Shown one piece after another: positions 4,497 through 64,000 of a stretch of DNA of 64,000 nt; the first letter of the stretch is position 1; each line of letters starts with the position of its first letter. A program made the position numbers and the translations under genes. Source of the stretch: an uncultured Prevotella sp. (lineage in GTDB: Bacteria; Bacteroidota; Bacteroidia; Bacteroidales; Bacteroidaceae). The stretch spans positions 1 through 64,000 of the forward strand of contig OMXK01000015.1 in NCBI GenBank assembly GCA_900314995.1. The letters are read 5' to 3'. The notes under the pieces are model-generated. The model did not search any database and was not told the DNA's origin. It was given only the letters and a program-made list of their open reading frames with translations.

Positions 4497-5546
4497 ATGA
4501 AAAAGGTATTATTAGCAACAATACTCATGGTCGGAGTGCTTGCAGCATGCAACCAGAAAGACAATCAAACTAAAACAGAAGAGAATATGCAGAAGTTAGA
4601 ATTAACGCAGGAGTGGGATAAAGTGTTCCCTCTGAGCGACAAGGTGAACCACCGAAAGGTGACATTTGAAACACAGTATGGACTGACCCTCGCAGCCGAC
4701 CTCTATGAGCCGAAGGATGCTCAGGGCGAACGCGGTTTTGTGGCACTTGCCTTTGACCCCTCTTACACTGGTGAAAGTAGTGGTGAGCCGAGACGCACAG
4801 CCTCGCCCGACATCAATACCGAGGATTTTATGGCGGCTGTTGACTTCCTCTCTAAGCAGGAGAATGTGGATGCTGACAAAATCGGTATCATCGGCATCTG
4901 CGGATGGGGAGGCATCGCCCTGAATGCTGCCGCTGCCGACACTCGCATCAAGGCTACGGTTGCAAGCACCATGTATGATATGACCCGCGTCAGTGGCAAC
5001 GGCTACTTCGACAGCGAGGACAAGGAGGAGTCGCGCCATGCAGCCCGTGAGGCTATGGCCAAGCAGCGCCTCGCCGACCCGATGGCTATGGCTGGGGGTG
5101 TGGTAAATCCATTACCCAATGATGCTCCGCAGTTCGTGAAGGACTACTACGACTACTACATCACCCCGCGTGGCTATCATAAGCGCAGCGGTAACTCAAA
5201 CGACGGTTGGCGCGTTATCGGCACACAGGCATTTGCCAACAGCCGCTTCCTCTACTACATCAACGAGATTCGCTCGGCCGTTCTCGTGATGCACGGCGAG
5301 AAAGCTCACTCGCGCTACTTCGGCGAGGCTGCCTATCAATATATGGTGGAAGGCAAGGCCGAGGGATATAATGTCGTGGGCAAGCCCAATCCCAATCCAG
5401 AGAACAAAGAGCTGCTCATCATTCCAGGTGCATCGCATTGCGACCTCTACGACGGCGGCTATACTGAGTTGGTAGGCAAGGGCGAGCCCAAGAACCTCAT
5501 CCCCTGGGACAAGCTCGCAGACTTTTTCAACAAGAACCTGAAGTAA
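4497..5546 (+). CDS. Dienelactone hydrolase-like lipoprotein
   Basis: A 349-residue alpha/beta hydrolase with a lipoprotein signal (MKKVLLATILMVGVLAAC, lipid-bearing Cys18). The nucleophile elbow is GICGWGG (Cys135), so Cys replaces Ser as in dienelactone hydrolases, and a late PGASHCDLYDG supplies the His. The acid residue is not certain by eye. Predicted to be anchored to the periplasmic or outer membrane and to act on an ester or acyl substrate. It sits 9 nt after the RibD-like gene and overlaps the aldo/keto reductase start in TAATG, so translation is coupled. A toxic or xenobiotic carbonyl substrate is a reasonable but unproven guess for the pair. Confidence 0.8.
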   Translation: MKKVLLATILMVGVLAACNQKDNQTKTEENMQKLELTQEWDKVFPLSDKVNHRKVTFETQYGLTLAADLYEPKDAQGERGFVALAFDPSYTGESSGEPRRTASPDINTEDFMAAVDFLSKQENVDADKIGIIGICGWGGIALNAAAADTRIKATVASTMYDMTRVSGNGYFDSEDKEESRHAAREAMAKQRLADPMAMAGGVVNPLPNDAPQFVKDYYDYYITPRGYHKRSGNSNDGWRVIGTQAFANSRFLYYINEIRSAVLVMHGEKAHSRYFGEAAYQYMVEGKAEGYNVVGKPNPNPENKELLIIPGASHCDLYDGGYTELVGKGEPKNLIPWDKLADFFNKNLK

Positions 5547-6532
5547 TGCCCACAACAGTCATGGCACACCTTCGTAAATTTTGTACACTGGCTATGATGG
5601 CATCCACTTTGTTCACCCACGCCCAGTGTATGCGAGTACACTATGCTGACGGGTGGACAGAGCAGATAGACGTAACGACGGTGGACAGCATCACCTTCGA
5701 CGAAAACAAACAACATTTGGCCCCTACGATTATGCTCAACAACGGACTCAGGATGTCGGCCTTCGGCATAGGCACCTATTCACTTCACAACGAGACCTGC
5801 TTCAACTCCGTCTATACGGCCTTGAAAAACGGCTACCGCCTTATCGATACCGCCTATATGTACGGCAATGAGGATGAGGTGGGCCGTGCCGTGCGACAGG
5901 CTATAGCCGACGGCATCTGCAAGCGCGAGGATGTGACAGTCATCACCAAGATCTACCCAGGTTCACAGTTTGCCAACCCAGAACAAGCCATCCAGGAACG
6001 TATTGACAAGCTCAACATCGACTATGTGGACATCATGCTGCTCCACCATCCGGGCGACAACGATGTAAAAGCCTACAAGGCGATGGAGAAGCAGGTCGAG
6101 GCAGGGAAAAACCACTCTTTAGGTATCTCATGCTTCTATATTGACGAACTGAAGAGGTTCCTGCCGCAAGTGAGCATCAAACCAGTACTGGTGCAGAATG
6201 AGATCCATCCCTATTACCAGGATACGGATGTAGTGGACTACATCCACTCTCAGGGCATAGTCGTTCAGGCTTGGTATCCGTTAGGAGGCCGTGGCCATCA
6301 GTCGGAATTGCTGAAAGACCCTGTTCTTGAGCGTATTGCCGAGGCACACGGCAAGTCGGTGGTACAGGTTATCCTGCGCTGGCACTACCAGCGCCGTGTG
6401 GTGGCCATTCCTGGCAGCAGCAATCCTGCCCATATAGCCGAGAATATCGACATTTTCGATTTCGTACTTACTGATCAAGAGATGGCCGACATAGCCGCAC
6501 TAAACAGAGATGAGAAACATGACTGGTACTAA
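5546..6532 (+). CDS. Exported aldo/keto reductase
   Basis: A 328-residue protein. Residues 1-28 form a signal peptide (LRKFCTLAMMASTLFTHAQ), then about 30 residues of a small beta domain (VHYADGWTEQIDVTTVDSITF) common in Bacteroidetes exported proteins, then a full AKR barrel. The catalytic tetrad is visible: Asp101, Tyr106 (DTAYMYGNE), Lys135 (ITKIYPG) and His167 (IMLLHHPG). AKRs normally need cytosolic NADPH, so a signal peptide is unusual. The start overlaps the preceding stop by TAATG. The C-terminal cofactor-binding loop (AIPGSSNPAHI) is intact. Substrate unknown. Confidence 0.85.
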   Translation: MPTTVMAHLRKFCTLAMMASTLFTHAQCMRVHYADGWTEQIDVTTVDSITFDENKQHLAPTIMLNNGLRMSAFGIGTYSLHNETCFNSVYTALKNGYRLIDTAYMYGNEDEVGRAVRQAIADGICKREDVTVITKIYPGSQFANPEQAIQERIDKLNIDYVDIMLLHHPGDNDVKAYKAMEKQVEAGKNHSLGISCFYIDELKRFLPQVSIKPVLVQNEIHPYYQDTDVVDYIHSQGIVVQAWYPLGGRGHQSELLKDPVLERIAEAHGKSVVQVILRWHYQRRVVAIPGSSNPAHIAENIDIFDFVLTDQEMADIAALNRDEKHDWY

Positions 6533-8209: not shown

Positions 8210-8514
8210 TTCTTCTTTGTCCAGGTATTGGCAATGATGATGCCGACGAAGATTATAGCGAGAAAAATGCCAGCAGCCGCCAATAGTGAATTTTTATCAT
8301 TGCCGAGGAGAGGCACAATGGTGCAAAAGACGGCGGTTACCACCATCAGGACGGCCATGACAATTCTTAGTCGCTTGATATCGATAGTCTTGCGTTCTTC
8401 TTCGCTGGCGGTATTGTAGCCTGCAATGAGCATATCGCCCTTGCCCATCAGGAAGATGACGGCAAGGACGAGAAACATAATGGCAAATACGATACAGACA
8501 ATCATAACAATCAT
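8206..8514 (-). CDS. DUF3784-like small membrane protein
   Basis: A 102-residue protein with three predicted transmembrane helices (residues about 2-22, 50-70 and 78-97). Helix 1 is followed by GKGDMLIAGYNTASEEE, the signature of DUF3784 proteins. The function of the family is unknown. It overlaps both neighbours by 4 nt (ATGA), so it is translationally coupled between a nucleoside phosphorylase and mnmE. Confidence 0.8.
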   Translation of the reverse strand: MIVMIVCIVFAIMFLVLAVIFLMGKGDMLIAGYNTASEEERKTIDIKRLRIVMAVLMVVTAVFCTIVPLLGNDKNSLLAAAGIFLAIIFVGIIIANTWTKKK

Positions 8515-57682: not shown

Positions 57683-58357
57683 ATGGACTACGACGTAAAA
57701 GGTCATTTGCATCAGATACTCGATACGTTGCCACAGGGTGTCCGCCTTGTGGCAATTTCCAAGTATCATCCCAACGAGTATATCGAGGCAGCCTATGCCG
57801 AGGGGCAGCGCATCTTTGGCGAGAGCCACGAACAGGAACTGCGCCTGAAGCATGAGTCGCTGCCCAAGGATATCGAGTGGCATTTCATTGGCCATCTGCA
57901 GACGAACAAAGTGAAGTATATCGCACCGTATGTGTCAATGGTTGAGGCTGTTGACTCGCTCAAGCTCCTGAAAGAGATTAATCGTCAGGCAGAGCGCTGC
58001 GGGCGTGTTATCAAGGTGCTGCTTGAACTGCATATTGCAGAAGAGTCTACCAAATACGGTCTTACGCTGGATGCCTGCCGACAGTTGCTCGATGATGGCG
58101 AATGGCGCGATATGCAGCACGTGAAGATCTGTGGCCTGATGATGATGGCCTCCTTCGTAGACGACAAGGAACAGATTCGCCGGGAAATGCAGACAGCCGC
58201 TGATTTCTTCGATGAAGTGAAGGCGAAATATTTTGCGGATGACGAGGCGTTCTGCGAACGTTCCTGGGGCATGAGCGACGACTATCTCATTGCCGCTGAG
58301 ACCCGTTCTACGATGGTCCGTATCGGTACGGCTATCTTTGGTCCCCGCGTCTATTGA
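57683..58357 (+). CDS. yggS: YggS-family PLP homeostasis protein
   Basis: A 224-residue PLP-binding barrel. The Schiff-base Lys is in VRLVAISKYHPNEYIEAAY, with GESHEQEL and EWHFIGHLQTNKVKYI next, and the end carries STMVRIGTAIFGPRVY, the phosphate-binding segment. I chose the ATG at 57683, 1 nt after the DUF4494 stop, which gives the family N-terminus; longer frames overlap DUF4494. It buffers PLP and amino-acid pools in the cytosol. Its 3' end overlaps the convergent EFR1 gene by 26 nt. Confidence 0.92.
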   Translation: MDYDVKGHLHQILDTLPQGVRLVAISKYHPNEYIEAAYAEGQRIFGESHEQELRLKHESLPKDIEWHFIGHLQTNKVKYIAPYVSMVEAVDSLKLLKEINRQAERCGRVIKVLLELHIAEESTKYGLTLDACRQLLDDGEWRDMQHVKICGLMMMASFVDDKEQIRREMQTAADFFDEVKAKYFADDEAFCERSWGMSDDYLIAAETRSTMVRIGTAIFGPRVY

Positions 58358-59114
58358 AATAATACTGATCCCGCTTTCTGGTGATGCCGCCGTTGTTGAT
58401 GGCATGTACGGGGCAGTAATGATAACAGGCCAGACAAGAGGTACACTTTCCACTATGTAACCATCTGGGAGGTGTACCTATTATATTATCCACAGGGCAG
58501 ACCTTCGCGCACTTGCCACACTTGATACAGACATCTGCATCCACCGTGAACTTCTTGTCGGTTACCATCTTCTTATTGAAATAGCCGCCAATCACGTATG
58601 AATAGAGTCGGGGAGTGGCGCCCTTTTCCAGTTCTTCAATTCCCTTTTTACAGTCTTTGATGATGCTGACGATATGATGCAACTGTCGCCCGGCATTCTC
58701 TATCTTCCAACGTTCCTTGTCTTCCGGATCCGTCTTCATAAACGGCAGACAGACATACGACTCTGGCATTATCACGGAGAACGTCGTTTCCGCCTTCAGG
58801 CCGATAGTAGCCAGCTCCTTGTTCAGGATGGTCATCGCCTCACCCATGTTGTCGCCGCAGGTCGTTAATGCCCAGCAATAGGCATCGTCGGCTTTCGTGA
58901 TGCACAGCCTTCTGATAAAGTCCCTCACAATGCGTGGCGGCTGCCAGCCATGCGTCGGGAAACAGAATCCCAACCGTTCTCCCTCTCTCGGCGTGAACGT
59001 ATATTGTCCCTGTCTTATCAGATCAGGGATATACAGCAGTTCCTCGCCAATGGCCTTTGCAATCTCGCCAGCCACCCATCTGGTGTTGCCAGTTCCTGAA
59101 AAATAGAATATCAT
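58332..59114 (-). CDS. EFR1-family ferrodoxin/flavodoxin fusion
   Basis: A 260-residue protein. The N-terminal flavodoxin-like part begins MIFYFSGTGNTRWVAGEIAK, the FMN-binding motif, and the C-terminus has two [4Fe-4S] sites, CIKCGKCAKVCPVDN and CTSCLACYHYCPVHAIN. EFR1 proteins move electrons from ferredoxin-like clusters to a flavin; partners are unknown. A TAACTTTG -7 box lies about 30 nt upstream. It is the last ordinary gene before the repeat-rich region. Confidence 0.9.
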   Translation of the reverse strand: MIFYFSGTGNTRWVAGEIAKAIGEELLYIPDLIRQGQYTFTPREGERLGFCFPTHGWQPPRIVRDFIRRLCITKADDAYCWALTTCGDNMGEAMTILNKELATIGLKAETTFSVIMPESYVCLPFMKTDPEDKERWKIENAGRQLHHIVSIIKDCKKGIEELEKGATPRLYSYVIGGYFNKKMVTDKKFTVDADVCIKCGKCAKVCPVDNIIGTPPRWLHSGKCTSCLACYHYCPVHAINNGGITRKRDQYYFNRRGDQR

Positions 59115-59282
59115 CGTTTATCACTTCTCTAATTCAGGAGCAAAGTTACAACTTTTCCCCGAATAAACACCATGATTTATCAGGAAAAGTTATTTTAGCA
59201 CATCATTTATGCCCGGACATCATCGACTATGAATCCAGTATGTTCAGACATGTTTTGATATTTGAAAAGATGATACTTTTTC
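59115..59282. other. AT-rich non-coding stretch before the repeat arrays
   Basis: Apart from the TAACTTTG -7 box of the EFR1 gene near 59140-59150, I see no gene or clear element here. Confidence 0.4.
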
Positions 59283-59394
59283 AACTCTCTACCAAAATGT
59301 GATATAACTCTTTGTATATTAATCTCTTAACACAAATTCAACTTTCTACTAACTTTCTACAAACTTTCTACTAACTCTCTACCAACTCTCTACT
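59283..59394. repeat. 11-bp tandem repeat array, left
   Basis: Five head-to-tail units of exactly 11 bp run from 59340 to 59394: AACTTTCTACT, AACTTTCTACA, AACTTTCTACT, AACTCTCTACC, AACTCTCTACT. A separate unit AACTCTCTACC lies at 59283-59293. The period equals about one helical turn, so a row of protein molecules would sit on one face. There are no spacers, so this is not a CRISPR array. The role is unknown; iteron-like binding is one option. Confidence 0.8.
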
Positions 59395-59430
59395 AAATCA
59401 CATGCTAATCAGCAAATAATGTTGCCTTAC

Positions 59431-59471
59431 TGCCGTATAGTTACCCACAACGATGTAGTTACATTACGGCA
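59431..59471. repeat. Inverted repeat TGCCGTA / TACGGCA between the arrays
   Basis: Arms at 59431-59437 and 59465-59471 enclose a direct repeat TAGTTAC (59438-59444 and 59456-59462). The layout looks like a recombinase or initiator site but has no protein partner here. Confidence 0.5.
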
Positions 59472-59505
59472 AACCATCATTCATATACCGACAAACTATA
59501 CCTTT

Positions 59506-59557
59506 ATCGTAAGCAAACTGCTAAATTCTCTAGAGAATTTTTAATTCCGCTTACGAT
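59506..59557. repeat. Inverted repeat ATCGTAAGC / GCTTACGAT with a nested 18-bp palindrome
   Basis: Perfect 9-bp arms at 59506-59514 and 59549-59557 enclose AAATTCTCTAGAGAATTT (59523-59540), a perfect palindrome. It lies near the centre of the region between the two arrays. Confidence 0.65.
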
Positions 59558-59636
59558 TGACCACCTTTCAACAGTAACCCGAGCAGGCATCACTCGGTAC
59601 ATAAATGCACGAAATCTGCCATATTCATACCATTTT

Positions 59637-59747
59637 AGTAGAAAGTTTGTAGAGAGTTAGTAGAGACTTTGTAGAAAGTTTGGTAGAAAGTATATAGAGT
59701 ATAATATATTGATATATAGTCATATATACGGATTTTAGTAGAAAGTT
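59637..59747. repeat. 11-bp tandem repeat array, right, opposite orientation
   Basis: Four contiguous 11-bp units (59637-59680), AGTAGAAAGTT, TGTAGAGAGTT, AGTAGAGACTT, TGTAGAAAGTT, plus a fifth one base further (59682-59692) and a solitary AGTAGAAAGTT at 59737-59747, exactly 100 bp from the first. These are the reverse complement of the left-array unit, so the two arrays face each other. Confidence 0.8.
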
Positions 59748-59793
59748 ATTATTGTTTTGTCAATTTGCAATTCAATAACATATAATTTACTCC

Positions 59794-59819
59794 TGAAGAT
59801 ACTCCATATAATATCTTCA
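59794..59819. repeat. Hairpin TGAAGATA / TATCTTCA
   Basis: Perfect 8-bp arms with a 10-nt AT-rich loop. No U-tract follows, so a terminator is unlikely. The rest of 59760-59940 has no clear feature. Confidence 0.35.
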
Positions 59820-59944
59820 TGACTCCTCGAATTTTTGGAAGCGTGATTCATATAACCAGAGGTACCTGAATGCCTCCTATAGGATGCCGCCGTCATAAAC
59901 TATTTTATGGGAAATGTGTAATTTTGCGAAAAGGAACTAAATTA

Positions 59945-59976
59945 TTTGGAACTTATCAATCTTTTTCCTATCTTTG
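59945..59976 (+). promoter_or_regulatory. Promoter reading toward cas9
   Basis: TTTG (59945-59948), 20 nt, TATCTTTG (59969-59976), a full match. The transcript would include the 33-codon frame at 60023 and cross the tracrRNA locus in antisense before reaching cas9. Confidence 0.75.
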
Positions 59977-60022
59977 CAGCAGAAAAAAGACACTAATATG
60001 AGTGATTAGAGATTACTACGAT

Positions 60023-60124
60023 ATGAACAACAAAGGACCAGGTTACGTTATATTTATTGACCAATCCCTGCTTTCGCGAAGATTGGATAATGTTTGGCAT
60101 GATGAGACTGCTCTGTCGAACTAA
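60023..60124 (+). CDS. Putative 33-residue peptide upstream of cas9
   Basis: A short frame beginning MNNKGPGYVIFIDQSLLSRR and ending in a charged helix-like tail (DNVWHDETALSN). It follows a good promoter after about 40 nt and stops just before the tracrRNA terminator, which lies on the other strand. The amino-acid makeup looks protein-like, but I do not recognise it; no clear ribosome site precedes it. It may be a leader peptide, a remnant of a longer gene, or chance. Confidence 0.3.
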   Translation: MNNKGPGYVIFIDQSLLSRRLDNVWHDETALSN

Positions 60125-60139
60125 AGGCCAATCATATAT

Positions 60140-60170
60140 AAAAAGAAACTCCCACGGCAGTCGCGGGAGT
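60140..60170 (-). terminator. Intrinsic terminator of the tracrRNA
   Basis: Minus-strand stem ACTCCCGCG / CGTGGGAGT (60162-60170 with 60148-60156, one mismatch, 5-nt loop) followed by TTTCTTTTT. Confidence 0.75.
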
Positions 60171-60220
60171 AGAACTTCGGCTTAAAAGCCTTGTTGTGAA
60201 AAGTCTTTCACTTGTATCTG
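60140..60220 (-). ncRNA. tracrRNA candidate for the adjacent Cas9
   Basis: Read on the minus strand from about 60220: an anti-repeat (60191-60219; AGATACAAGTGAAAG then ACTTTTCACAAC) with an internal GTGAAA/TTTCAC fold, then AAGG, a nexus-like hairpin GGCTTTTAAGCC (60179-60190) and a terminator hairpin (60148-60170) followed by TTTCTTTTT. This order (anti-repeat, nexus, terminator) is the tracrRNA plan, and the anti-repeat predicts a CRISPR repeat that starts GTTGTGAAAAG, close to Bacteroidetes type II-C repeats. The RNA would be about 80 nt. The matching CRISPR array is not in the window. Confidence 0.75.
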
Positions 60221-60224
60221 GGTG

Positions 60225-60256
60225 CAAAATTAAGAATTAAAAACGATAAGACCAAA
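60225..60256 (-). promoter_or_regulatory. tracrRNA promoter
   Basis: Minus strand TTTG (60253-60256), 20 nt, TAATTTTG (60225-60232), an exact Bacteroidetes consensus. It lies between the anti-repeat and the cas9 start. Confidence 0.75.
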
Positions 60257-60271
60257 TATTCTGCTAAGAAA

Positions 60272-63200
60272 ATGAAGGAAAAAGTTGTTGGAATCGATTT
60301 GGGAACAGGTTCGCTAGGTATACTTCTCAGGAATCTTGAACTTGGTGATAATATCATTGACCAGTTGGAATGGTTCTCTGTGACAACGTTTGACTCAGGT
60401 ACGGGCATGAGTCAGACAGGGGAATATACGCTGGCTTCAGACCGCAGGTCACATGTGCAAAGCCGACGCTTAAAGGAACACAGCAGATATAAGAGGTGGG
60501 CCACGTTGGCTCTTTTGATTGAATACGATATGTGTCCGATGAGTCCAGAATCATTAGAGAAATGGCGTGTATATGACAAGACCAGAAACTTGAAACGCGA
60601 ATATCCTCTAGACGATCTAGCCTTCAATCAATGGATTAAGATGGATTTCAATGGCGATGGCATACCAGAATATACAAGCCCGTTCCAATTAAGGCGTGAA
60701 TTGGTTGAAAAGCAACTTGACTTCTCTCAGCCTGAGAACAGATACAGACTTGGTAGGGCCATCTATCACATAGCTCTTCATCGAGGCTTCAAGAGTAGTA
60801 AGGGTGAAACATTGGCAGAATTGGAAGAAGGAAACAAGGATACCCAAATTAGCACAGACGATTTGGAAGGTGCCATGAAGAAGTCTGAGGAAAAGAAATC
60901 CAAAGATCTGACAGAATACATGGAGTTTCACCAACTGAAGACAGTCGGACAGGCATTTGCCTATTTAGAAGATGAGGGCGTAAGGATTCGCAATAGTCGT
61001 TATCAGGCTGTAAGATCCCAAAATGTTGATGAGATCAATGAATACTTTCAGTTCCAGCATGGGCTCAGTGGTTTTCAAGAATTGCACAAACGGCTGATAA
61101 GCACGAAGAAAGGGATTGGCACACTCTTCTACAAACTTCCTCTTCGCTCTCAGAAAAGCCATATTGGCAAGTGTATTTTCGAAAAGAACAAGAGACGATG
61201 CCCCATCTCACATCCTGAATATGAGAAGTACAGAGCTTGGGCTTTTATCAACAACATCCGCTATAAGGCATCTGTTGAGGATGTTTGGCAAGAATTATCT
61301 TTGGAGATTAAGAACCAACTCTATCAAGAGGTCTTCGTCTCTAAGGTAAGAAAGGACTTTAACTTTGAGGTTATCCGCAAGTTCTTGGAAAAACATCTAT
61401 GCTTAACGTTTTCAAATACAGAAAAGGCCAAGACTATCAATTACAAAGATAATACGTTGGTAGCAGGTTGTCCTGTGACAGCCCGCCTTCATAATATAGC
61501 AGATTATTTCGGCACAGACATTGAGCACTTCGAGCAGAAAGGAACGAAGACACGCGATACTCACACTAAAAGACAAGAAAGAGAGAAGCATACCGTAGTA
61601 TATCATACGATGGACTTATGGAATTTTTGCTTCGATACTGACGAGAAAGAAGATGTGACGGCCTTTGCCCATAACTCTTTAGGATGGAACGAGCAGGCTA
61701 CTGACAAGCTCTGCAAATTATGGAATGCAATGGATCAGGGCTATGCCACACTCAGTCTGAAGGCCCTCAGAAACATCAATCGCATGCTGATCTATGGTCT
61801 CAAAACCTCAGATGCTGTATTCCTAGCTAAAGTGCCCGACATTACAGGTATGTCGGAAGAGGGTGTCAAGGACTTGATTGACATTTATCTCGGAAGGGTA
61901 AAAGGGCAAGTTAACCAGGAAGTGCGGGATTGCAGAATTGTCAACACTCTGATTGCTAACTACAAATCTATGCCAGTCAGAGACCGCTTTGCAGATCATA
62001 ACTATGATTATCAATTAGGTATCGATGACAGGGAAGCCGTTGTAAAGTGCATCGTGGATAATGACAAGGACTTTTCTCTGCTTGATGCAACAGCACAGAA
62101 GGAGATGATTGATCGTGTGACGAATCTTTACCAGTCTTTCTTTGCAGATATTCATAGGGATTTCGTGAAAGCCCCACGAATAGTCGATGCCCTCAAAGAA
62201 GAACTTTGCAAGAGATATTCAGGCATAGAAGACAGCAAATGGGAAAGACTTTACCATCCTTCCATGCTTTCTGACTTCCCTCGTGACAAGGAGAATGCCA
62301 ACCATCTTGGCAGCCCAAACATCGGAGCCATTCGCAATCCTACAGTCATGCGAACATTGAATGTGCTCAGAAGTGTCATCAATAAGATGATAGACGAAGG
62401 ACTTATTGACCCTCAGGAAACCCGCCTTGTCGTAGAGACAACGAGAGTGAACAATGATATCAATAAGCGATGGGCCATTCAGAAATACAATGAGGAGCGT
62501 CGGGACGAGAACAAAGCCATCAAGGACATCCTTCAAGAGTATTATCCTGAAAAGGACATCAATGACAATGATGTTGATGCAGCACGCTATGTGTTGGAAC
62601 AGTCTGGTGAAGACCTCTATGGAGGAAACGACAGATTCCAGCATTTGATTAAGAAATATAAACTATGGCTTGAGCAGGGATGCCAATGTCTGTATACTGG
62701 GCACATCATCAGTCTCTCAAATCTTCTTAACGGTGAGATGTTCGATGCAGAACATACGGTACCGAGGAGTATCTCTTTTGACAGTTCTGACAAGAACCTG
62801 ACGATGTGTGATTCCTACTACAATCGCCATGTTAAAAAGAATATGATACCATCACAACTGCCCAACTATGAACATGATGTCGTGATAGACGGCCATACTT
62901 ATACAGCCATCAAACCCAGACTTCAAATGTGGGAAGAGAAGGTGGAACGCCTCAGCAAAAATGTAACATTCTGGAAGAATAAGGCCAAAAGAGCCCAGAC
63001 GGAAAGTTATAAGAATACCTGTATTCGCCAGAAATTGCTTTGGCTGATGGAGTTTGACTATTGGCGTAGCAAACTTGACAGGTTCAAAATGAAGACAAGT
63101 GACCTGACAGACGGCTTCAGGAATAGCCAGTTGGTGGATACAGGTATCATCACCAAGTATGCTTTGCTATATTTGAAGACCCTCTTCAAGAGTGTTGAAG

Positions 63201-64000
63201 TACAGAATGGCCAATCCACATCAGCCTTCCGCAAGATATTCGGAATACCGGAGAAGGATCGCTCCACTCATTATCACCATGCCGTAGATGCCGCCATCCT
63301 TACATTGATTCCTGCTTCGGCTCAGAGAAGCAGGATGTTGAAACTGTTTTATGAGATTGACGAGCTGAAGCGAGGTGGCCATGAGTATTCAGGACTTCAA
63401 TTCCAGTTAAACAAAGAAATTGAGAGTTGTGGTATTGGAAAAGGCGTAGCCGCTGTTGATCAGTATATTGAAGATCACGTATTGGTGAATTACCACAAGC
63501 AAGACCGTACATTGCAGGATGCCAACAACATTAGGGGTAAACTCCACGCAGAAACATTCCTGGGGGCTATCACCCAATGGAATGGAGAAGAAAAGAAGTA
63601 TGTGAAAAGAGCGGAATTGAAGTATAAGAAGTCTTCACTCGATTCTGGATTTAAAAGTTGGGAAGACTTGGAGGGTGCCATTGTCAATAAACAATTGGTG
63701 CAGATGATGAAGTCGCAGTTCCCAAAGGGCACAACATTCCAAGAGGCTTGTGAACAGGGCATCTATATGCTGAACAAGAGGGGAGAGAAGGTGAACAGAA
63801 TCCGCCATATCCGTATTGAGGTTAAAGAGAAGCATCCTTTGGCCATCAAGAAACAGACGAACCTATCTGCCAAAGATTACAAGCAGTATTACTATGCAGG
63901 TATGGGTGATCTGTATGTGACATGTGAATATCAGAATCAGCAAGAGAGGGAATTCATTGTATATAGCCTGTTCTCAATCGCAGAAAACAGGAAGCTGGGT
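60272..64000 (+). CDS. cas9: Cas9 endonuclease, type II (probably II-C), 3' end beyond the window
   Basis: One open frame of 1243 codons runs to the right edge without a stop. RuvC-I is VVGIDLGTGSLGI (Asp9). An Arg-rich bridge helix lies at 57-75 (DRRSHVQSRRLKEHSRYKR). HRGFKSSKG is a recognition-lobe motif. RuvC-II is RLVVETTRVNND (Glu722). The HNH domain reads CLYTGHIISL then FDAEHTVPRS (His828, with Glu in the usual Asp place) and KNLTMCDSYYNRHVKKN. RuvC-III is YHHAVDAAIL (His1003, Asp1006). All nuclease residues are present, so it should cut DNA guided by crRNA and tracrRNA. The end looks like the start of the PAM-interacting part. cas1, cas2 and the array would lie to the right. Confidence 0.95.
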   Translation, partial: MKEKVVGIDLGTGSLGILLRNLELGDNIIDQLEWFSVTTFDSGTGMSQTGEYTLASDRRSHVQSRRLKEHSRYKRWATLALLIEYDMCPMSPESLEKWRVYDKTRNLKREYPLDDLAFNQWIKMDFNGDGIPEYTSPFQLRRELVEKQLDFSQPENRYRLGRAIYHIALHRGFKSSKGETLAELEEGNKDTQISTDDLEGAMKKSEEKKSKDLTEYMEFHQLKTVGQAFAYLEDEGVRIRNSRYQAVRSQNVDEINEYFQFQHGLSGFQELHKRLISTKKGIGTLFYKLPLRSQKSHIGKCIFEKNKRRCPISHPEYEKYRAWAFINNIRYKASVEDVWQELSLEIKNQLYQEVFVSKVRKDFNFEVIRKFLEKHLCLTFSNTEKAKTINYKDNTLVAGCPVTARLHNIADYFGTDIEHFEQKGTKTRDTHTKRQEREKHTVVYHTMDLWNFCFDTDEKEDVTAFAHNSLGWNEQATDKLCKLWNAMDQGYATLSLKALRNINRMLIYGLKTSDAVFLAKVPDITGMSEEGVKDLIDIYLGRVKGQVNQEVRDCRIVNTLIANYKSMPVRDRFADHNYDYQLGIDDREAVVKCIVDNDKDFSLLDATAQKEMIDRVTNLYQSFFADIHRDFVKAPRIVDALKEELCKRYSGIEDSKWERLYHPSMLSDFPRDKENANHLGSPNIGAIRNPTVMRTLNVLRSVINKMIDEGLIDPQETRLVVETTRVNNDINKRWAIQKYNEERRDENKAIKDILQEYYPEKDINDNDVDAARYVLEQSGEDLYGGNDRFQHLIKKYKLWLEQGCQCLYTGHIISLSNLLNGEMFDAEHTVPRSISFDSSDKNLTMCDSYYNRHVKKNMIPSQLPNYEHDVVIDGHTYTAIKPRLQMWEEKVERLSKNVTFWKNKAKRAQTESYKNTCIRQKLLWLMEFDYWRSKLDRFKMKTSDLTDGFRNSQLVDTGIITKYALLYLKTLFKSVEVQNGQSTSAFRKIFGIPEKDRSTHYHHAVDAAILTLIPASAQRSRMLKLFYEIDELKRGGHEYSGLQFQLNKEIESCGIGKGVAAVDQYIEDHVLVNYHKQDRTLQDANNIRGKLHAETFLGAITQWNGEEKKYVKRAELKYKKSSLDSGFKSWEDLEGAIVNKQLVQMMKSQFPKGTTFQEACEQGIYMLNKRGEKVNRIRHIRIEVKEKHPLAIKKQTNLSAKDYKQYYYAGMGDLYVTCEYQNQQEREFIVYSLFSIAENRKLG

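Follow-up and report, generated by a model that had tools for sequence, protein, structure and literature searches.

Facing 11-bp repeat arrays beside cas9 in an uncultured Prevotella sp. belong to a family found upstream of predicted primase-helicase genes

Architecture of the element and copies with the same unit

The stretch of DNA analysed here (the window) comprises 64,000 nucleotides of an uncultured Prevotella sp. (contig OMXK01000015.1, positions 1 to 64,000), and our subject is a 465-bp element at 59283-59747, in which arrays of an 11-bp unit, AACTYTCTACN, face each other as iteron arms around a core. The element sits between two divergent genes, namely: a gene for a 4Fe-4S ferredoxin-type protein on the minus strand (58332..59114), whose start is 169 bp away, and cas9 on the plus strand (60272..64000, running past the window end), which starts ~525 bp away. 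Both genes lie outside the element. The initial annotation had seen no explanation for the arrays in the neighbouring genes, and this holds at the window locus. No tRNA was found in the whole window.

Units were searched for as AACTYTCTACH with up to 1 mismatch, using the shuffled window as control. The window contains 18 matches vs. a shuffled mean of 5.16, a number reached in 0 of 100 shuffles, and 12 of the 18 are in the element. On the plus strand, the left arm has an outer unit, AACTCTCTACC (59283..59293), and an inner array of five tandem 11-bp units (59340..59394), found both by the unit search and on reading the repeats, which start at 59340, 59351, 59362, 59373 and 59384. On the minus strand, the right arm has five inner units (59637..59692; starts at 59637, 59648, 59659, 59670 and 59682), two of which carry a mismatch, and an outer unit starting at 59737 (59737..59747). 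The proposed six units per side in opposite orientation are thus all present at no more than 1 mismatch. The strict helical period that had been claimed applies to the five tandem units per arm; it fails at one step of the right arm, which is 12 bp instead of 11, and at the sixth unit, which is set outward by 57 bp on the left and 55 bp on the right.

Each arm is an inverted repeat of the other (59351-59397 vs. 59634-59680, 91% complementary), and their AT content, 71-75%, is above that of the core. The core (236 bp, 59398..59633) has blocks that also occur in array elements built from other repeats and, as first described, bears a palindrome: the perfect 18-bp AAATTCTCTAGAGAATTT at 59523..59540, enclosed by an imperfect inverted repeat (TCGTAAGC ... 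GCTTACGA) at 59506..59557.

Elements with this unit, hereafter type A, occur at four places in the genome examined (3.48 Mb, 86 contigs), and all 25 hits that a genome search gave at up to 1 mismatch fall in these places. The window copy is an orphan, i.e. no primase-helicase gene adjoins it, as are C55b (C55:87703-88187) and C16 (C16:1803-2288), while the fourth copy, C56 (C56:about 59960-60375), is linked to such a gene. Since three further elements in the same genome are made of the same units, the layout at 59283-59747 is real and not a chance arrangement. Among 200 genus genomes, seven (this one included) match three units with at most 3 mismatches; five of the seven were read, G083 and G098 being left unread. 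In the 14 sources read for TCTAC arrays, complete facing pairs are found in 12 elements: four in this genome, five in G120, and one each in G018, G088 and G082. The arms face inward in the copies read and the gene-linked copies have one neighbour in common, unlike the scattered low-complexity sequence, without conserved orientation or neighbours, that the initial annotation had named as grounds for discarding the arrays. A partial copy cut by a contig end, in an uncultured Prevotellaceae (L071, RUG249), is 91-95% identical to C55b and C16 and is a true relative.

The predicted primase-helicase gene downstream of the arrays

The unit search across genus genomes with a listing of neighbours, suggested in the initial annotation, brought up further facing arrays and, at the gene-linked copies, the primase-helicase gene. 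In an all-against-all comparison of the proteins encoded around 13 elements, a single neighbour directly beside the arrays recurs between loci: a protein of 713-743 aa encoded directly downstream of the arrays in C56, G120 and G082, with 76-79% identity among the three. There are three other between-locus matches, namely: frames over the arrays themselves (G120a, G120c); a 74% identical pair, G018/G082, whose distance to the arrays is 0.7-0.8 kb; and a weak, aminotransferase-like match.

The C56-type protein carries the Pfam domains BT4734-like_N (PF08800) and VapE-like (PF05272), and is predicted from its sequence to be a PrimPol-VapE primase-helicase; it has 12 matches in this genome at E up to 1e-5. 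The best match of its predicted structure is PriRep1, which is VapE-like and has been solved together with DNA. Its variable C-terminal domain covaries with the repeat sequence in a comparison from which relatedness is not fully removed. PADLOC labels the C56 protein PrimPol (E 4e-27), and this label, together with a nucleotidyltransferase/HepT-like gene pair upstream of the C56 array, could point to a defence-island element. The pair lies directly upstream of that array (L034 6966-7602). At a G120 locus (L112; 3073-4572, 7688-9031), a gene-linked array and its primase-helicase gene are located between a GmrSD-type gene and a gene that is ATPase-like by eye.

The association was tested by asking for facing arms of at least 4 units at 11-bp steps upstream of the gene. 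A set of 60 genus genomes (completeness of at least 95 asked) yielded 22 genes at E up to 1e-100, of which G052 was dropped because its upstream stretch is cut by a contig end. Twelve further genomes, picked for many palindromes and so not an independent draw, gave 39 matches; 23 were tested, and 16 protein fragments or rows without a locus were dropped, including the 75% identical fragment G018:C230. Among the total of 44 genes tested, 20 have at least 57% identity to the C56 protein, and facing arms of at least 4 units lie upstream of 18 of these 20, two of the positives (G099:C29 and G088:C138) being near-identical loci. The two misses are G151:C47 (two units) and G099:C10 (three). In the 60-genome draw alone, all 10 close genes, five of them from this genome, have arrays. 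In the controls, at least 3 units are reached in 0 of 44 downstream stretches, in 0 of 38 flanks of an unrelated gene and in 1 of 440 shuffles (three-base blocks, 10 per gene), and at least 4 units in none of the 440. An earlier, cruder scan is in agreement as far as the close genes go, and gave scores to two distant genes as well, C73 and G032:C57, with fewer units.

The gene-linked arrays lie within ~1.1 kb upstream of the gene start, a position that would also suit an autoregulatory operator. In that case, the arrays would keep the primase-helicase gene repressed, with the orphans regulating, or titrating for, other genes, perhaps cas9 or the ferredoxin gene at the window array, which is placed between these two divergent genes. 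However, two symmetric facing arms around a palindrome exceed the needs of an operator, the genes beside orphans are varied by eye and at varied distances, and no Rfam family is matched at gathering score within 58900-60400. We regard an operator as improbable.

When named genomes and viral contigs were scanned for the pattern, nine stretches came up. In seven of the nine, the repeats are one-sided, with no facing arms of at least 3 units near the first match, and no relative of the C56 protein was found in the DNA around any of the nine at E up to 1e-3. Of the other two, one is the cut copy L071 and the second, L069 (Parabacteroides sp. PM6-13; 5436-5560), has facing 11-bp arms of six and four units, ~24 bp apart and of different sequence. 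Facing 11-bp arrays may therefore reach beyond the genus, with L069 as a possible divergent relative.

Other repeat types, the palindrome and the spread of copies

Blocks of the window core match many dispersed places in the genome, and in most of the 13 places read, the same core is framed by facing arrays of other repeat sequences. Six repeat types are gene-linked in this genome, five of which also have orphans. Type A (TTTCTAC) is linked to the gene at C56, which thus has its repeat type in common with the orphans in the window, C16 and C55b. Type B (TACTGAC) has its gene at C40 and orphans at C31 and C84; type C (TGACATA) has its gene at C51 and orphans at C49a, C53a and C61b; and type D (CACTAAC) has its gene at C58 and orphans at C51b and C81. 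Type E (CTTCCAC) is gene-linked at C73 with an orphan at C34, and type F (ACCTCCA) is gene-linked at C43, with no orphan seen. C77 has a further repeat type, with no gene seen.

The palindrome and the arrays were compared in 33 stretches of this genome, with an array cut-off score of 9. The palindrome or a near form is present in 25 of the 33 (with 21 exact ones among them, the same number as in the palindrome count of the genome), and 15 of these 25 have facing arrays at a score of at least 9. C51b scores under 9, yet shows at least 4 units per arm on separate reading; the arms of C77 are visible by eye; and the remaining 8 have no arm or one arm only. The other 8 stretches, among them the gene-linked array at C43, are without the palindrome. 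Across the genus, AAATTCTCTAGAGAATTT occurs in 39 of 200 genomes, with up to 40 copies in one (G108), and a reversed control pattern has no match in the 200. The palindrome also occurs without facing arrays, e.g. at loci L280-L294 (G192, G077, G169), and was rejected as a marker of the family for this reason. Several of these array-less palindromes stand within longer inverted repeats. In several array elements (L153, L161, L164, L295 and L297; G099, G103, G119 and G088), the palindrome is found twice near the centre, 65-66 bp apart.

The abundance of the palindrome in the genus, the silence of the reversed control and the array-less copies are what would be expected if the palindrome were the basis of a REP-like repeat, or of one that organises the host chromosome, and the arrays a mere addition to it. 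Yet G120, with five array elements, lacks the exact palindrome, the gene-linked C43 array has none, and the gene goes with the arrays and not with the palindrome, making a repeat of this kind very improbable.

How the copies spread was examined from their alignments and flanks. The alignment of type B and type C copies covers the segment between the outer unit pairs and hardly goes further, and their flanks are unrelated. In the type A comparison, the repeat columns of the window copy score 0.82, 0.81 and 0.77 against C16, C55b and C56, respectively, above the spacer columns (0.69, 0.68 and 0.41), indicating conservation of the repeats. C16 and C55b, in two different places, have ~640 bp in common at 86%, a segment that overshoots the outer units by 60-90 bp at either end. 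The partial copy L071 has the right flank of C55b (78/80 bases) and a core nearer to C16 (159/165) than to C55b (152/165), suggesting that sequence was copied from one place to another. C55b itself may have inserted within a nucleotidyltransferase gene: its right flank reads as a fragment of such a gene (L033 about 8335-8431), similar to the one near the C56 array, its left flank is ambiguous, and a comparison with at least 120 listed relatives favours neither outcome.

At the window locus, 19 of 36 matching relatives were read for an empty site and no arrays were seen beside the ferredoxin gene; the gene order differs and some flanks are <1.5 kb. The two genes flanking orphan C51b are far apart or on different contigs in those genomes for which both are among the matches listed, e.g. 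G131, G245 and G037. As no empty site was found, mobility is inferred from the copies only. The orphans are intergenic; at 13 further places with an orphan or a partial copy, the neighbouring open reading frames are varied and lie at varied distances, as judged by eye. None of these neighbours is cas9-like by eye, with one place family-scanned, and the suggestion that the window element is a regulatory array of the CRISPR locus, or specific to that locus, was set aside.

Such a distribution could also be produced by a miniature inverted-repeat transposable element (MITE)-like transposon, in which the outer unit pairs serve as terminal inverted repeats, with subterminal transposase sites in the inner arrays, and a transposase encoded elsewhere moves the copies. 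The likeness of type B and C copies mainly between their outer units, the intergenic orphans beside varied reading frames, and the long C16/C55b match at two different places would agree with this, as would the 10-bp TTTTGCAAAA directly outside both ends of the type B copy C84, a possible target-site duplication, though it is itself palindromic. No such duplication was seen by eye at C31, C40, C49a, C53a, C61b, C51 or the three type A orphans, however, and the common C16/C55b segment runs beyond the outer repeats, so that its ends are not these inverted repeats. Furthermore, the recurrent neighbour is a primase-helicase that has no nuclease domain in the Pfam listing and lies outside the ends. 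We consider transposition of this kind unlikely.

A predicted origin-like site and related systems

We favour the reading that the window element is a gene-less copy of the facing-array family and probably an origin-like loading site, to which the C56-encoded protein would bind in trans. The element would represent an unusual new form of iteron-type initiator site whose origin function is predicted. That the arrays could be the replication origin of an integrated element was among the first suggestions; it is favoured through the relatives upstream of primase-helicase genes, and not through evidence at the window site itself. In the mechanism that we envisage, a winged-helix-like C-terminal domain would read the repeats at approximately one unit per subunit, so that one hexamer would fit on each arm of five to six units. 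Two VapE helicase hexamers would then be set head to head over the core by the facing arms, and the core would be melted, with the fused PrimPol domain priming there. Orphans like the one in the window may be by-products of array copying without the gene.

Several observations weigh against an origin-like site read by this protein. The core is only moderately AT-rich, at 61% vs. 53% for the window. The C-terminal model alone gives weak structural matches (best E 0.11), and N-terminal residues 1-66 covary with the repeats (r 0.55; partial 0.29) to the same degree as the C-terminus. The gene at G151:C47 has 78% identity and no clear array, the arms at G018:C143, counted as positive, almost touch, unlike the others, and among the distant genes (29-53% identity) 0 of 24 reach four units and three reach three. 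The L069 array has no match to the C56 protein within its 8 kb, and the palindromes at L280-L294 stand without arrays. Finally, the protein is matched by 45 plasmid and 107 phage records, none at 60% identity or more, and no relative is encoded in the viral contigs; an extrachromosomal replicon is therefore not seen, and a plasmid or phage origin was set aside. Two plasmid-named records that were opened are chromosome pieces by the look of their gene content.

The closest known systems are the SaPI replication module, which consists of the Rep/PriRep primase-helicase and an iteron origin, and SCCmec Cch2. The gene-linked copies, though not the window copy, resemble SaPI in having a predicted initiator helicase of the PriRep/SaPI Rep fold beside the repeats, with several short repeats near the gene. 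In SaPI and SCCmec, the repeats are downstream of the gene, whereas the arrays described here are upstream; the facing arms at an 11-bp step, the presence of at least six repeat types in one genome and the gene-less orphans are further differences. BT4734-like proteins are described as an archaeo-eukaryotic primase family, and VirE (PF05272) is predicted to be a helicase of mobile-element replication (PMC5862659). The C56-type protein carries both a BT4734-like primase and a VirE/VapE helicase domain; the terms iteron and inverted repeat are absent from the main text of PMC5862659.

Two dispersed intergenic repeats of related bacteria were also compared by their descriptions. BrickBuilt, a MITE of Porphyromonas gingivalis (a species related to this group), is likewise intergenic, dispersed and repeat-containing, but is described as having a 23-bp tandem repeat in one block and IS-like terminal repeats, and the word primase is absent from the main text (PMC4596501). 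PINSR, an intergenic repeat of Prevotella intermedia and nigrescens, is described as 188 bp long, with no terminal inverted repeats and with 177 and 184 copies in two strains (PMC4755523). By this description, the window element, with 465 bp, inverted arms and four copies of its type in this genome, is not a PINSR.

No prior description of the element was found in the literature searched, which leaves out most subscription papers, nor was any partner DNA site for BT4734/VapE primase-helicases found there. As genes of this type recur in these genomes, the arrays are a candidate and directly testable target for them, and arrays and proteins together form a natural series of paired repeat/protein variants for reading a recognition code. 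On a fecal phage contig (L151, MT836775), facing AAACTA repeats at 22-bp steps, possibly a divergent array, lie upstream of a distant primase-helicase relative at 697.

A more speculative extension is that one chromosome holds at least six distinct sets of initiator and origin, each PrimPol-VapE gene having its own 11-bp code, and that most of these have seeded gene-less selfish origins. The C56 initiator, when on, would then fire the window copy in trans and over-replicate the cas9/CRISPR neighbourhood; we find this doubtful. Why gene-less origin-like copies persist beside ordinary genes, here beside cas9, is a puzzle. There is no sign, judged without a dedicated test, that the proximity to cas9 exceeds chance. 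The full extent of cas9 is 60272-64348 on contig C55 (L032 273-4349), and downstream of it there are six copies of a CRISPR-like repeat, spaced at 76-77 bp (C55 64472-64911; L032 4473-4912), an array that begins ~470 bp beyond the window end.
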